IMG/VR virus record: IMGVR_UViG_3300017786_000141
Coordinates: 1 to 24,003 of that record
Length of the DNA: 24,003 bases
From: a virus
Strand: one strand, 5' to 3'
Shown here: piece after piece, positions 14,522 through 20,976 of the stretch
Layout of the letters: each line of letters begins with the position of its first letter
Numbering within the stretch: the first letter of the stretch is position 1
Program-made: the position numbers and the translations under genes
The notes under the pieces: model-generated
What the model was told of the DNA's origin: nothing
Database searches by the model: none
Seen by the model: the letters and a program-made list of their open reading frames with translations, nothing else

Positions 14522-17500
14522 ATGCCAACAAATAATCATGCAAATAATAAATATGAGGTAACCGTATATAATATAAGTACGGTTAGTGGTAATCCAGGCG
14601 CAGGAGCACATATTGCAGAGCTGCATATTACACCTAAAAACTCTTTAGACCCTGTATTTGCTGGTGATTTTAAGATTAATTCATTGCCTAGTCAATACAA
14701 GGCTTCCTCTCATTACCCTACACCATATGGTCCAAGAACAACTTCTTACACACATCCAGACTTTAGCGGTCTTTATCCTACAACAGATTCTTACGAGTTT
14801 TACTATATAGGTTGGCAATCTTTTAACACAATAACAGGGTTTTCTTCAACAAGCACTGCTGGGTATATTGCTCAAGCGCACTTCATGGAAGTTTATCAAA
14901 ATGATAACGGTGATTTAATTAATAACGAGCCTATTGGGAGTGGAGGATTAAATGATCCAAGTAGCGGCCCAACTAGTTTGAATCTGTATATAAACACATG
15001 GCTTGCGGCTGAAACAGACCCTGCAGATAGAGGAACAATATCAGCAAATGTAAACCCTGTGTTTATTAGATTGTTTATTATTCTTCATAATTTACCAGAT
15101 CCTTTTACTGCTGATATATTACAACTTTTTGATTTAGATTTAGTACCGCATGCTGTTACTAATTATGGATGTACTGATCCTAATGCAATTAACTACAGTG
15201 CTAGTGCAAATATAGATGATGGAAGTTGTACGTATTTTGGTTGTACTAATGACAACACTGGTTCTTGGCCTGATATAAACGGAAATAATGTTGATGGTAC
15301 TCCTTGTTTAGGAGGCACATTATTTACAACTCAGCCGACAGGTTACAATATAATAAATTATCCTTGTATTGATGCAAATACTGGGCTAGCTAACGGCTAC
15401 GAAACTGTTAACTTTAATCCTCAAGCAGCGATTGATGACGGAAGTTGTTTAATACCAGTGACTGGTTGTGGAGATGATACTTATATAGAGTATAATCCAA
15501 ATGCTGATTTTGTAGACAACACTACGAACTGTATAACACCTATTGTTTACGGCTGTGTAGACAGTTCATATAGCGGTTCTGATATAAATCCAGATGTTAA
15601 TGGTTATTGTGTTTCTGGCGCTGCTGCAGTTGGTGGTTTTTGTGCTGTTGGTGATGGTTATTTTGCTTACAACTATGATCCTAGCGCAAATGTAAACCAA
15701 GTAAGTCTTACAGATACCTCAGATCCTTGTGGTTATTGCACGGTTTACGGTTGCACAGACAATACTGCTTTTAATTATGACGCGTCAGCTGATTGTGATG
15801 ATGGATCGTGTATAGCAACAATAACCGGTTGTTTTGACCCACAAGGTAATGATCCAACGACAGGCTTGCCATTATCTTCAAACTATAATTATTTAGGTAC
15901 TACAGGAGCTATAAATCATGATCCAACCGTAAACACTATTAATCTTAATGATTGCTATTATTTTCCTGGTTGTACAGATTCTGCTGATTTAACTTATTTT
16001 CAACAGACTTATATTGATGCAAACGGTGTAACTCAACTTATGTTTAATGCATGTGTTGGTGGTAGTGTAGTAGACTATGATGATGGTAGTTGTAGTGGAA
16101 CTACTAATTTTATTGCTGGTTGTACAGATCCTAACGCTAACAACTATTTAATAAGTGCAGTAGTTGATGATTGCTCTTGCATATATCCAAACCCTGTTGG
16201 TGGTTGTATGGACGATACTGTTGGTGATAATCCAGATGTAAACGGTGATTGCACAAATACAGACCCTGCTACTGGAAATATAATTAATGTTGGTTACCCA
16301 AATCCTCACGGTTGTGGTGGTACTGATGGTTATTTATCAGCAAACTACGACCCAGCTGCAAACACGACTAGTATAACTGATCCAGCCACTAATATAACAA
16401 CAACATATACTTGTGATTACTATGGCTGTACAGATTCAAATGGTAGTAACTATGATGCGACAGCAACTTTAGATGATGGCACTTGTGTAGTTGATGGCGT
16501 GTACTATAGCATTATTGGTTCTGGACATCTTAATATACCTAATACTAATTTAAATAACGGAACAATAAATAATCCTACGCCTAATGTTCATATTGGTGCC
16601 ACTGCAATGGGTAATACTTTAACTGGTGCTGGTCCTAGTAATGGTTTTATAACAAACCAAGGTCTTGTTGACTTTAGTCTTTATGAAGGTTTTACTTTTG
16701 AAGATGAAAATGGAAATGTGTTAGAATCTACAGCTTTTCTTTTTACTATGTTTGGCCATCTTGCCGGAAGCCCAGCATCGTGGGAAAATTTTCCTTTAAT
16801 ATTTTCTACAGCGCCAAGTTTTAAAAATGCTCAAGAGGTTAATTTAATGGTTTTAAATCAATATTTAGTTTCAGAAGCTGTTTTAGTTGTGGCTGGTGAA
16901 ATTGATATTGCTACTTTAGATCCTGGTTTTAATTCTACAGCTTGGTCTATAACCCCTCACCCTAGCGTTACTTATTCAGGTATAAACTCAGATCCTAGTT
17001 CTCCATACTTTGGTACTTTTGAGTTTTCACATGGTGATATTGCTGATATTGGACTTGATGGTGATTCTGCTCACAATCCTGCTACTGACGGTCCTGGATA
17101 TCAATTTGAAATTGTTGAAGAATATACTGGTACGGATAGAGCAAATATAATAGCGTTATTAGCAGATCAAAGACAACAAGGCGTTTGGGGAGGAGTTGAA
17201 TTAGATCAATATTTATTTGGGTGGAACATTTCGCCAGGCACTTCAAACCCTGCGCAAACTGGTTATATTACTTATTTAAAATGTAAGTTTTATACAAATA
17301 ATATTAATTTTGATTACGCAACCGGAGGTCAATATCCAAATTTAATGGGTGGTTTTACTCAAATAGAACCAATTCAATTTGTTTATAAACCAGGTTGTAT
17401 GGACGTTTTAGATTGTAATTACTGGGCAGATGCAACAGTTGAAGACACAGGGTTGTGTAGTGGTACTTACTATGGTTGTACTGATCCAGGTGCAACTAAT

Positions 17501-18661
17501 TATGATGCGCTAGCAGGTTGTGATGATGGTAGCTGTGCATATGCTAATTGTGTAGGCTCAAATGGACAGAGCAGCTTAGGCCCTGGAACCTATTATGGTG
17601 GTAGTTATGGTGCTTTAGGTTATGGCCTTGTAGGAAATGTTACTCCATATTCGCCTGGTGTCGGTGGAAGTAATCCAACAAAAACTAATGTTCAAGAATT
17701 TGATCCTTCTATGGTCGGTTTTAACATGGCATGTAACGGTATAAATACATATAACAATACTACTTTTTTACCTTCTAACAATCATAGAGCTTTTCATGCT
17801 GATTTTACTAATTTAATGGTTGAAGGACAATTGCCATCTACAACACCTTTGCTATCACCTGATACAGCGCTTTGGACGCTTTTTACTAGTCAAACTTCAG
17901 ATAATGGAACAAATAACTCTAGCTACACTGGTGTTTGTGGAAACACTACTACGCATAATTTTTGGTCAAGAGACCATCTTAACGTTGGATCAATGTACAG
18001 AAAATGGTCATCAAGTAGAACAAGACTTTATTTAAAAGGCATGCACGATACCTACATTTCAAGCGGTTTGCATGGTGGTACAAGCGGAAACAATGCAGAT
18101 ATTACATCAATTATTGCGAGCACAAGAGGTTTATCTGGAGGTATACCATACGGTATTCACGGTATGTATATTAAATTAGATAATTTGGATGTTAATGATG
18201 AATACACATTTGATATTAGATATAGATATATACCTAAATGGAATAACAACTACACAAATACTGACCACGTAACTTTTAACAAACAAAGTGATGATTTAAG
18301 AGCACACATACGGCTTGGCTGGGGTTATTATGGAACAAATGGAATAAATAGTGCTGATGATAGTAATGGTAATCTTGCATTTATAGATTACAATGGTATT
18401 GTAGGGCAAGGAGTTACTCAAATACCACCAAACGATATAGCAAACTGGGGAGGCGTTACAGGTGATGGACCTTATCACAGTTTAATAGAAGGTAGACTGA
18501 GACAGCGGAAAGCTTACAAGACAAATGGTCAAGCTAATATAGATATGCATAGAGAACAAATTAATTTTTCACCTACTCACGCAAATAACAATGTTTTAAT
18601 GATTTCTATAGGTAATGGGTTTAGAATGGATATTGAAGCAATACAAATTTACTGCGTTTAA
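14522..18661 (+). CDS. Large cysteine-repeat tail fibre/adhesin-like protein
   Basis: This 1379-residue protein is a likely receptor-binding fibre or spike. Residues 1-205 form a beta-rich N-terminal domain, probably the virion attachment part. It shares HITPKNSLDPVFAGDF-like and FDLDL-like signatures with the next small protein. Residues about 216-655 are a Cys-rich repeat block of GCTDxxAxNY...DDGSC units mixed with PDVNGxC and NYDPxAN units. Residues about 657-955 form a Gly/Asn/Thr-rich beta domain without Cys until near the end. Residues about 957-1005 hold two more repeats. Residues about 1010-1379 form a final Gly/Asn/Ser-rich domain with Trp and Tyr (WSRDHLNVGSMYRKWSSSRT), a plausible carbohydrate-binding tip. 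GCTD...DDGSC repeats are known from secreted Bacteroidota proteins, where Cys may pair and the Asp-rich loops resemble calcium sites. No signal peptide or T9SS sorting tail is present, so it is not itself a secreted host protein. The substrate is unknown. Confidence 0.72.
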   Translation: MPTNNHANNKYEVTVYNISTVSGNPGAGAHIAELHITPKNSLDPVFAGDFKINSLPSQYKASSHYPTPYGPRTTSYTHPDFSGLYPTTDSYEFYYIGWQSFNTITGFSSTSTAGYIAQAHFMEVYQNDNGDLINNEPIGSGGLNDPSSGPTSLNLYINTWLAAETDPADRGTISANVNPVFIRLFIILHNLPDPFTADILQLFDLDLVPHAVTNYGCTDPNAINYSASANIDDGSCTYFGCTNDNTGSWPDINGNNVDGTPCLGGTLFTTQPTGYNIINYPCIDANTGLANGYETVNFNPQAAIDDGSCLIPVTGCGDDTYIEYNPNADFVDNTTNCITPIVYGCVDSSYSGSDINPDVNGYCVSGAAAVGGFCAVGDGYFAYNYDPSANVNQVSLTDTSDPCGYCTVYGCTDNTAFNYDASADCDDGSCIATITGCFDPQGNDPTTGLPLSSNYNYLGTTGAINHDPTVNTINLNDCYYFPGCTDSADLTYFQQTYIDANGVTQLMFNACVGGSVVDYDDGSCSGTTNFIAGCTDPNANNYLISAVVDDCSCIYPNPVGGCMDDTVGDNPDVNGDCTNTDPATGNIINVGYPNPHGCGGTDGYLSANYDPAANTTSITDPATNITTTYTCDYYGCTDSNGSNYDATATLDDGTCVVDGVYYSIIGSGHLNIPNTNLNNGTINNPTPNVHIGATAMGNTLTGAGPSNGFITNQGLVDFSLYEGFTFEDENGNVLESTAFLFTMFGHLAGSPASWENFPLIFSTAPSFKNAQEVNLMVLNQYLVSEAVLVVAGEIDIATLDPGFNSTAWSITPHPSVTYSGINSDPSSPYFGTFEFSHGDIADIGLDGDSAHNPATDGPGYQFEIVEEYTGTDRANIIALLADQRQQGVWGGVELDQYLFGWNISPGTSNPAQTGYITYLKCKFYTNNINFDYATGGQYPNLMGGFTQIEPIQFVYKPGCMDVLDCNYWADATVEDTGLCSGTYYGCTDPGATNYDALAGCDDGSCAYANCVGSNGQSSLGPGTYYGGSYGALGYGLVGNVTPYSPGVGGSNPTKTNVQEFDPSMVGFNMACNGINTYNNTTFLPSNNHRAFHADFTNLMVEGQLPSTTPLLSPDTALWTLFTSQTSDNGTNNSSYTGVCGNTTTHNFWSRDHLNVGSMYRKWSSSRTRLYLKGMHDTYISSGLHGGTSGNNADITSIIASTRGLSGGIPYGIHGMYIKLDNLDVNDEYTFDIRYRYIPKWNNNYTNTDHVTFNKQSDDLRAHIRLGWGYYGTNGINSADDSNGNLAFIDYNGIVGQGVTQIPPNDIANWGGVTGDGPYHSLIEGRLRQRKAYKTNGQANIDMHREQINFSPTHANNNVLMISIGNGFRMDIEAIQIYCV
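15548..15811 (+). repeat. Compound repeat, copy 1
   Basis: Residues 343-430 run in the order YGCVD, NPDVNGYC, NYDPSANVNQVSLTD, YGCTD, DDGSC. The same order occurs again at 16199-16486, so these are two copies of a larger repeat of about 90 residues. Linkers between the motifs differ in length. Confidence 0.6.
16199..16486 (+). repeat. Compound repeat, copy 2
   Basis: Residues 560-655 run in the order GGCMD, NPDVNGDC, NYDPAANTTSITD, YGCTD, DDGTC. This parallels copy 1 at 15548-15811 with a longer linker after the second motif. Copy number variation within the fibre is a likely source of length change. Confidence 0.6.
17390..17536 (+). repeat. Second short cysteine-repeat block
   Basis: Residues 957-1005 hold two repeats, one starting PGCMD and ending with a degenerate EDTGLC, and one starting YGCTDPGATNYD and ending CDDGSC. 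They separate the middle beta domain from the C-terminal domain of the fibre, so they may act as a stiff joint. Confidence 0.7.
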
Positions 18662-18662
18662 A

Positions 18663-19112
18663 ATGAATAAATATACAATAACAACATTTACTAAATCAGG
18701 GTTGCAACCAAATGTTTCTAACCAACTTAATAATGTTAGAGGTGTTTTAAGAATAATTCCAAATCAAGGAGAGCAAATTATTGCTGGTAATTTTACTATA
18801 GATGGCCAAAGAGGTTATCCGCTTGGTGACGCACCATACCCACTTGCAAGGCATAGGAGTTTAACTTATTTAGAAGAGCAAGCGAGTAACGTTTACACTT
18901 TCAAAACACCTACGAGTTTTGATATTAACGGAAATGCTATCGCGTGGACTGATTTTAATTCTGCAATAGAAAATATAAAACTAACAGAAAGATATAATCA
19001 AACATCTAACTTTCCTATATTTATTGTTGTAGAAGTTAATTTTACACAAGCATTTAAAACAGCTAACATAGGTAGTAATATAAGTATAAATTTGGACTTT
19101 GATTTAAAATAA
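18663..19112 (+). CDS. Small fibre-associated/appendage protein (149 residues)
   Basis: I start this gene at 18663, one base after the preceding stop, within TTTAAAATGAATAAA. An in-frame ATG at 18615 would overlap the fibre gene by 47 bases and would add a 16-residue segment with no recognisable pattern. The protein starts NKYTITTF, contains VLRIIPNQGEQIIAGNFTID near 29-48, and ends ISINLDFDLK. The fibre gene upstream starts with NKYEVTVY, then HITPKNSLDPVFAGDFKIN, and its N-terminal domain ends LQLFDLDL. This suggests that the small protein and the fibre N-terminal domain share a fold, as if one arose from the other. It may cap, anchor or replace a fibre. No enzyme motif is visible. It is beta-rich, with no membrane segment. 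Confidence 0.68.
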   Translation: MNKYTITTFTKSGLQPNVSNQLNNVRGVLRIIPNQGEQIIAGNFTIDGQRGYPLGDAPYPLARHRSLTYLEEQASNVYTFKTPTSFDINGNAIAWTDFNSAIENIKLTERYNQTSNFPIFIVVEVNFTQAFKTANIGSNISINLDFDLK

Positions 19113-19116
19113 TAAT

Positions 19117-20583
19117 ATGAAAAAATTAATAAAAAACTTTTTAATTTCAACTCAAGATGCCGCTGCTGCAAGCTCTATTAGGGAGTTTACAATAAACGGT
19201 GACGTTGGCTCTGTTTTTGATTTGCAAATTACAAACGAAGATGGCCACTATTATAGTTTTGAAAAAGGCAACTTTTCTGCTGGTGCAAAGCTTTCTACAA
19301 CAGCTAGCACTAGAGGTTCTATAGAAAACTCTTATGAATTTCATATACTTAACGTAAATGCAAGTATTGTGGTTGGTATGATTGTTACTGGAGACGGTAT
19401 TGTTGGTGAAACAAAAGTTGTTGGCTTAAAAAACCCTGGTACAGTAACAAGCCCTAGTGTTGTTGTTATGGATAAAGCACACACAATTCCAGATTCAACA
19501 ACTGTTACTTTTGTAGCAGAAAAAGGTTTAAATGAATATAAAATGGCGTCAGGATCATACACAGGCTCTGTTGTTTTACCAACTGTAACAGATGACGATC
19601 ATTATGTATTTTTATTAACAGCATCTCACAAAGACAATACTTTTTTAGAGAACATAGAGCCTGAAATTGACTTAAATATTGGAAGTAGTAATTATGGTGA
19701 GTTTTTAACAACCGGTTTTAGAAACGATCTTTTTAAATCAATTAGAATAAATCAATTTGTAAATACAACCGCTACTGTAAATTTAGTTTCTAGTGTGTTA
19801 ACAAATGCTGATATTAACTTAACCTCTTTTTCTTTTGATATTAGTAAACCTAGAGGTTTTACTTCTAGCGCTGGTTTTAAAACATCTTTTAAATGGACTA
19901 TTGTTTGCCCTACAAACCTTGCTATTAGAAAATCACTAGATTTAGAAGCAAAGTATTTTAAAACAAATGAAACTCAAACGGTAAATGGTGCTATTACAAA
20001 TAGTAGAACTGTTGTGTTAGATTCTGTTGATAATTTAAAAATAGGTATGCAAATTACCGCTGTTAGCTCTGGTTCTTTAGCAGGTAATAGTCATATACAG
20101 TTAATTGATAGAAACAACAAAACAATTGTTATTGGCGCAAACAACTCTTTTGCAGATGGTATTACTTTAACTTTTTCAGCTCGTGGATCTAGTGGTCCTA
20201 ATGCTTACGGTACTAATTTAGTTTTTCAAAATTTAGCAGTTGAAATACCTGACTTAACCGTTACTGTTAATGGAGCTACTAGCAATAATACAACTTTAGT
20301 TTTAGACGATGCTAGCTTTATTCAAGACGGTGCTACTACTATAATAAAAGGCGTTGGCATTGACGTTGATAACACTGTTACACACGTAGCAACTAGAGCT
20401 TCTGGGTCAAACAGTTTAACGCTTTCAGCAGCTAAAACAGTAGAAGATGGTGTAACTTTAACTGTAGAAGGCAGTAGCTCAACAGCAATTATAACAGGTG
20501 ATGTTATTTTAACGCGAATGGGTAGTTTAGATTTTACAACAAGTTTAGATTTATCAGACTTTTTAGGAATAGGTGTATCATAA
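19117..20583 (+). CDS. Modular appendage protein with repeated beta modules
   Basis: The core of this 488-residue protein starts REFTINGDVGSVFDLQITNE (about 23-42), followed by YYSFEKGNFSAG. I recognise this as a domain common in tail or fibre regions of uncultured marine phages. The core is interrupted by a module at about residues 79-138 (GMIVTGDGIVGETKV, then TVTFVAEKG) and resumes with YKMASGSYTGSVVLPTVTDD. Two further modules lie at about 289-358 (VNGAITNSRTVVLDS...GMQIT...ITLTFSARG) and 384-454 (VNGATSNNTTLVLDD...VTLTVEG). A short tail ends SLDLSDFLGIGVS. The modules resemble one in the connector protein at 8091. A virion appendage or fibre-linker role is likely; no catalytic motif is visible. 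The ATG follows an AATAATAAT leader four bases after the previous stop. Confidence 0.65.
   Translation: MKKLIKNFLISTQDAAAASSIREFTINGDVGSVFDLQITNEDGHYYSFEKGNFSAGAKLSTTASTRGSIENSYEFHILNVNASIVVGMIVTGDGIVGETKVVGLKNPGTVTSPSVVVMDKAHTIPDSTTVTFVAEKGLNEYKMASGSYTGSVVLPTVTDDDHYVFLLTASHKDNTFLENIEPEIDLNIGSSNYGEFLTTGFRNDLFKSIRINQFVNTTATVNLVSSVLTNADINLTSFSFDISKPRGFTSSAGFKTSFKWTIVCPTNLAIRKSLDLEAKYFKTNETQTVNGAITNSRTVVLDSVDNLKIGMQITAVSSGSLAGNSHIQLIDRNNKTIVIGANNSFADGITLTFSARGSSGPNAYGTNLVFQNLAVEIPDLTVTVNGATSNNTTLVLDDASFIQDGATTIIKGVGIDVDNTVTHVATRASGSNSLTLSAAKTVEDGVTLTVEGSSSTAIITGDVILTRMGSLDFTTSLDLSDFLGIGVS
19351..19530 (+). repeat. GMxVxG beta module 1, inserted in the core domain
   Basis: Residues about 79-138 include GMIVTGDGIVGETKVVGL and end TVTFVAEKG. 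It sits between two halves of the core domain rather than at a domain border, which suggests insertion into a loop. It is the copy closest to the connector-protein module. Confidence 0.55.
19981..20190 (+). repeat. Beta module 2
   Basis: Residues about 289-358 begin VNGAITNSRTVVLD, pass through KIGMQIT and end ITLTFSARG. The start matches module 3, so these two look like a duplicated pair. Confidence 0.55.
20266..20478 (+). repeat. Beta module 3
   Basis: Residues about 384-454 begin VNGATSNNTTLVLD and end VTLTVEG. The GM position has changed, but the order of motifs (V-N-G-A start, V-T central, LTLSA, then VTLTV) follows module 2. Confidence 0.55.
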
Positions 20584-20595
20584 AAAAATAATAAA

Positions 20596-20976
20596 ATGCC
20601 AAGTACAATAATAAATTTTTCACACAAAATAAATACTTCAGTTCAGGTAGGTGATACGGCTTATTGCCTTGATAGCGATCCTGCTAACGTTGGTGGTTTT
20701 GGAACAGCTGAAGAGCAAAACATTCAGCTTATAGGTGGTATAACAAATATAGATAGAATACTAAACAACATTACTTGTGATTTGCCAAATGGCACGCCAA
20801 CAGGCTTAGATCCTTTAAACAACACTGAGCCTTATATATTTTTTGGTAAAAACGAGTCTGTTAATACTTCTGGAGTAAAAGGTTATTATGCAAACGCTAA
20901 ATTTGTTAATAATAATTATGTAGAGCCTGCGGAGTTATTTGCAGTAAGCTCTGAAGTTAAAGAAAGTAGTAAATAA
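20596..20976 (+). CDS. Conserved 126-residue virion-region protein, unknown function
   Basis: The protein starts with INFSHKINTSVQVGDTAYC, contains a beta-rich middle, and ends with a FVNNNYVEPAELFAVSSEVK-type segment, then ESSK. I recognise this overall pattern (INFSHPL...VQVGDT...LF..K...LGYYA..KF.NN...KAELF.V.SEI.ESSK) from uncultured marine phages, where it recurs near tail and appendage genes without an assigned role. It has two Cys (near residues 23 and 60), no membrane segment and no enzyme motif. Its size and beta content suit a small virion component or tail-tip assembly protein. Its position, between fibre-type genes and ejection-type genes, supports a structural role. It starts after a TAAAAAAATAATAAA leader. 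The existence of the gene is secure; the role is unknown. Confidence 0.7.
   Translation: MPSTIINFSHKINTSVQVGDTAYCLDSDPANVGGFGTAEEQNIQLIGGITNIDRILNNITCDLPNGTPTGLDPLNNTEPYIFFGKNESVNTSGVKGYYANAKFVNNNYVEPAELFAVSSEVKESSK

Follow-up and report, generated by a model that had tools for sequence, protein, structure and literature searches.

A predicted tail appendage with GCTD...DDGSC cysteine units in a marine crAss-like phage

Gene context and architecture of the fibre-like gene

The sequence analysed here, IMG/VR record IMGVR_UViG_3300017786_000141 (24,003 bases; the whole stretch is called the window), is a fragment of a marine crAss-like phage genome and carries a fibre-like gene with repeated GCTD...DDGSC units, which starts 12 nt after the stop codon of the muzzle gene (Table 1). 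PHROGs head and packaging families matched the portal, large terminase (TerL), major capsid protein (MCP), ring-type and muzzle genes, and the muzzle was recognized by both phrog_14478 (E = 3e-129) and Pfam PF25729, crAss_MUZ_C (27.7 bits against a cut-off of 27, E = 3.8e-6). The genes follow the conserved order TerL, portal, MCP, ring proteins and muzzle of a Crassvirales-type tail cassette, and the fuller order TerL-portal-scaffold-MCP-rings-muzzle-fibre-tail genes is that of Cellulophaga, Maribacter and Flavobacterium podophages. Judged by the muzzle, the closest annotated relatives are phages of Cellulophaga, Flavobacterium, Tenacibaculum and Maribacter.

The fibre-like protein contains 3.0% cysteine, compared to 0–1.6% for the other window genes. 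Its 1,379-aa open reading frame (ORF) holds 12 GC.D heads (mean 0.36 and maximum 4 in 2,000 shuffles) and six DDG[ST]C matches (shuffled mean 0.005). A gapless profile located five clean 21-aa units of the form GCTDxxAxNYxxxAxxDDGSC at aa 216, 410, 533, 635 and 985, scoring 44–67 bits; shuffles of 60 repeat ORFs gave no score of 12 bits or more. The remaining seven heads have diverged or are interrupted by insertions, which reach ~50 aa. The initial annotation had counted more than ten degenerate units, which holds for the heads, only five of them being clean. It had also placed the array at 15164–17536, correctly, as the units run from aa 216 (15167) to aa 1005 (17536). That interval is not all repeat: after ten units starting at aa 216, 240, 315, 344, 410, 436, 483, 533, 561 and 635, a separate domain of ~300 aa with a single cysteine (C921) interrupts the array.

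The GC content at third codon positions and the codon usage of the gene resemble those of the rest of the window, and recent host capture is unsupported by codon usage. The protein has neither the signal peptide nor the C-terminal domain of Bacteroidota proteins secreted by the type IX secretion system (T9SS): the N-terminus (MPTNNHANN...) is not signal-like by inspection and Por_Secre_tail was not matched by Pfam, as the initial annotation had stated. Its reading of the gene as phage structural, rather than as a host gene out of place, is borne out by the codon usage and by the position between a crAss muzzle and conserved tail genes. Relatives of the whole protein were not found in a scan of viral contigs, by tblastn against phages, by phmmer against the PDB or in Pfam (no match at E < 1, BACON domain included), PHROGs and NCBIfam, nor were relatives of its single domains found by tblastn against phages. 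Literature searches with the motif returned nothing relevant, and an AlphaFold2 (AF2) model of the N-terminal domain, built from six alignment rows, was unusable (predicted local distance difference test score (pLDDT) of 41).

Table 1 Features of the fibre-like gene and its neighbours in the window.
Feature	Coordinates	Strand	Remarks
Fibre-like tail-appendage gene, 1,379 aa, 41 Cys	14522..18661	+	Between muzzle and conserved tail genes
N-terminal domain, aa 1–213	14522..15160	+	Weak likeness to next gene and to N-terminus of L101 post-muzzle protein
Repeat block 1, ten units	15167..16486	+	Canonical units at aa 216, 410, 533 and 635
Non-repeat domain, aa 660–957	16499..17392	+	No relatives found
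Repeat block 2, units 11 (aa 958–979) and 12 (aa 985–1005)	17393..17536	+	
C-terminal domain, aa 1010–1379	17549..18658	+	No relatives found; candidate receptor-binding part
Muzzle (tail-tip) protein, 1,754 aa	9246..14510	+	PF25729, phrog_14478; upstream neighbour of fibre
Small protein, 149 aa	18663..19112	+	Weakly resembles fibre N-terminal domain
Post-muzzle slot protein	19117..20583	+	Homologues in many crAss-like loci
Small conserved protein	20596..20976	+	Same cassette

Repeat-bearing muzzles and occurrence of the unit

A DNA pattern of the unit matched stretches in both viral records (at least 120) and genome records (at least 118). Among the viral matches listed, ~25 unit-bearing loci have genes related to the tail and head genes of the window, and 20 muzzle ORFs of related marine phages contain strict units. 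All 20 have their units downstream of the conserved portion of the muzzle, whose end falls at aa ~1731–1746 where the alignment covers it; the window muzzle ends at aa 1754. Given these C-terminal units and the separate genes found at the same place, the array belongs to the tail. Two such separate post-muzzle genes (L139:7394-8620 and L101:5192-7372) resemble the window arrangement, with an N-terminal domain that ends in a DxD-type stretch and is followed directly by a unit. The stop of the window muzzle appears natural because two other muzzles (L015 and L017) stop at a similar position, and a frameshift or assembly break between muzzle and fibre was rejected. A 3,216-aa muzzle ORF (L024:7226-16873, + strand) has units near aa 370–450 as well as one at its extreme C-terminus; insertion inside the muzzle therefore occurs too.

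In repeat-free relatives, the post-muzzle slot is mostly filled by one protein of ~400–560 aa. The fibre N-terminal domain gave single-comparison BLASTP E-values of 0.002 against the next window gene and 0.004 against the L101 protein, a likeness that is suggestive at the sequence level, and an independent E-value of 0.065 against a further slot protein (L019) in a profile search. The listed ORF of the next gene begins at 18615, within the end of the fibre gene; translation more likely starts from the Met at 18663, right after the fibre stop.

The unit is not specific to Bacteroidota, nor is it a signature of Flavobacteria, and the label 'Bacteroidota-type' proposed initially is too narrow: the unit is also carried by Neomarinimicrobiota and archaeal records, by cyanophage structural proteins and by the animal protein MPEG1. 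The 118 genome stretches listed comprise ~96 from Bacteroidota, nine from Neomarinimicrobiota, nine from archaea, two from Patescibacteria and two unnamed, so that ~20 lie in the three non-Bacteroidota groups; these taxa were counted by hand from record titles, many of them metagenome-assembled genomes, for which binning errors are possible. The unit also occurs in 28 records of named phages, mostly Synechococcus phages. In all three inspected (S-CAM4, S-RIM44 and S-H9-2, T4-like cyanophages of the Kyanoviridae), it sits in a tail-region gene for a structural protein, as in the window, but as one unit between domains and not as an array.

In hosts, the unit occurs in secreted proteins with MAM, Fn3 or SprB domains and T9SS tails, in line with the initial claim of host secreted counterparts. 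Like the fibre, the Bacteroidota proteins carry tandem units (spacing of 24–27 aa); unlike it, they are exported with T9SS tails, and half of their units have a cysteine at column 8. This cysteine is present in 49% of cellular compared to 6% of viral units (per-ORF Mann–Whitney P = 4e-5). Phage copies as a group lack the extra cysteine common in cellular units, so most of them do not resemble recent captures from hosts. Sorting the five canonical window units by cellular and viral profiles was dropped for want of discrimination, four scoring higher on the cellular profile and the fifth equally on both. Given the group difference and these five undiscriminating units, transfer between phages and cells may have run either way.

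T9SS export signals were found on some phage-encoded repeat proteins. Among the matches listed, a local profile assigned a T9SS C-terminal sorting domain to 20 of 113 viral repeat ORFs; Pfam Por_Secre_tail confirmed five of the 20, and some have signal-peptide-like starts; examples are L048:4159-8022 (+), L059:4539-8597 (-) and L094:372-4346 (+), with others on L118, L150, L119, L103, L098 and L137. A T4-type major capsid gene (PF07068) lies on five of 15 tested contigs with such ORFs, and Cryophage provides an earlier example of T9SS cargo encoded by a phage (PMC7468147). Small thioredoxin-like proteins with signal-like starts are encoded near two of these genes (L048:2915-3277, +; L059:2469-2816, -), with PF00085 matches of E = 2e-5 (over the cut-off) and 0.006 (below it), and are possibly linked to folding of the cysteine-rich cargo. 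The records behind L119, L103 and L098 (G005, G006 and G007) have in-frame TAA or TAG codons within major capsid or terminase matches, possible signs of introns, inteins, recoding or assembly errors.

Cysteine pairing and structural resemblance

With units selected blind to columns 2 and 21, C2 was present in 99% of viral and ~100% of cellular units and C21 in 91% and 96%, respectively. In S-CAM4 and S-RIM44, the two cysteines of the unit are the only ones in a protein of ~490 aa, while the S-H9-2 protein has four. A C2–C21 disulfide within each unit is the pairing suggested by this pattern. Between neighbours, C8 of unit n and C16 of unit n+1 occurred together 27 times compared to 19.7 expected (within-ORF permutation of C16, P ≤ 0.0005). 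The enrichment is directional, as the reverse order gave 19 against 22.5 expected. Same-unit C8–C16 pairing was dropped, since the same permutation gave 54 against 53 expected. The predicted C8(n)–C16(n+1) bond is thus read from co-variation in sequence. In the window, unit 11 has C8 without C16 and unit 12 has C16 without C8, and these two residues, C965 and C1000, are placed as the inter-unit pairing predicts; they stand outside the 27 counted pairs because unit 11 carries an insertion. Taken together, the cysteine evidence favours disulfides.

A tandem-unit AF2 model (mean pLDDT of 81) gave a sole Foldseek match in the PDB, MPEG1 chain 6u2k_B, with a root-mean-square deviation of 0.7 Å over 24 columns and 54% identity. 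By phmmer, too, the motif is present in the PDB in MPEG1/perforin-2 (E = 0.19). In MPEG1 (PDB 6u2j, 6u2k), the motif region has been called an EGF-like module and is placed between MACPF and P2. This hinge shares with the phage units its motif, its placement between two domains and its superposition on the model. It differs in being a single copy in an animal pore-forming immune protein, and the statistics are weak. The sequence and fold matches are each weak alone and not fully independent, as the same sequence underlies both.

Proposed role of the array and alternatives

From the gene context, the C-terminal muzzle fusions in relatives, the unit statistics and the cysteine co-variation, we propose, with a probability of roughly 0.68, that the gene product is a virion tail appendage, either a fibre or a muzzle-associated protein. 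In each ~25-aa unit, a disulfide would join the first cysteine to the last and so close the module, and some units would be stapled to the next by a second bond from C8 to C16. The units would separate beta-type domains, acting as spacers or hinges and leaving receptor binding to another part, possibly the C-terminal domain. Oxidation would probably take place after lysis, and the array may grow, shrink and relocate, from the C-terminus of the muzzle to a gene of its own or back. The initial annotation had seen a puzzle in cysteine-rich units folding in the cytoplasm. That puzzle is weaker than claimed: the phiCrAss001 study (PMC10172136) reports structurally resolved tail disulfides in the virion, so cytoplasmic synthesis is no obstacle if the bonds form late.

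Several points weigh against this proposal. Virion presence is deduced from gene context, and the spacer role from domain order only. Repeats occur in only one (L024) of the 31 IMG/VR loci that share the window muzzle and were found irrespective of repeats. The cysteine co-variation is drawn from ~21 ORFs, and C2 and C21 are too conserved for such analysis. The MPEG1 match is weak by Foldseek (E = 1.3) as well as by phmmer, AF2 may have learned the MPEG1 structure, and the MPEG1 papers examined gave no confirmation of a disulfide at the motif.

Alternatively, adhesion could fall to the units themselves, as a surface module captured from a host that imitates host adhesins or attaches to a glycan or protein of the host; the adhesin-like domains and T9SS tails of the cellular counterparts and the cellular-leaning scores of the canonical window units are in keeping with this view. 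We consider this unlikely: cyanophages and archaeal genome records share the unit, so no single host surface is tracked, cyanophage units are single linkers between other domains, the group composition departs from that of cellular units at column 8, and the fibre has phage-like codon usage. No evidence was found for imitation of host adhesins. Improbable, too, is rigidification of the fibre by metal, whether calcium held by the conserved Asp and Asn residues or a Cys–Asp site. D4, N9, D17 and D18 are indeed conserved at ~80–99%, but the MPEG1 structure paper examined does not mention calcium and the cysteines are paired and co-vary between neighbours as disulfides would (a pattern also compatible with a shared metal site), and metal binding is unsupported. 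Another alternative, that the protein remains in the infected cell or is exported from it and never enters the virion, as the repeat proteins with T9SS tags in large marine phages might suggest, is very improbable for a gene inside a tail cassette whose counterparts are fused to the muzzle and whose product has no apparent signal peptide or T9SS tail.

For the tail-spacer proposal, the nearest functional parallel is the tandem BACON arrays of crAssphage tail-associated proteins, which change by duplication and transfer (PMC6949934). The BACON domain likewise occurs in host Bacteroidota proteins and stands in tandem in a crAss-like tail-associated protein (PMC6949934). The window module is, however, unrelated, ~25 aa long with paired cysteines and without a Pfam BACON match, marine rather than gut-associated and often fused to the muzzle C-terminus. 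The phiCrAss001 virion offers a further parallel, with a muzzle and disulfides between tail proteins; GCTD repeats are not described in the available part of that study (PMC10172136). As a more tentative extension, one undescribed disulfide micro-module might be common to phage tail proteins, secreted bacterial proteins, archaeal proteins and MPEG1, its tandem form being a rod of alternating intra- and inter-unit disulfides that marine phages use as an extendable tail spacer, hardening after lysis and fusible to or splittable from the muzzle.

BACON arrays on gut crAss-like tails are the closest described parallel, and their function is not known. In the window, an unlike module of marine origin occupies a similar position, and it brings a testable cysteine-pairing rule. 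A module matched by no Pfam model in this work gains a link to a solved animal structure and, because the unit is present in cultured cyanophages, disulfide formation is directly testable. If true, the proposal would illustrate how oxidation-dependent spacers come to be added to phage tail tips.
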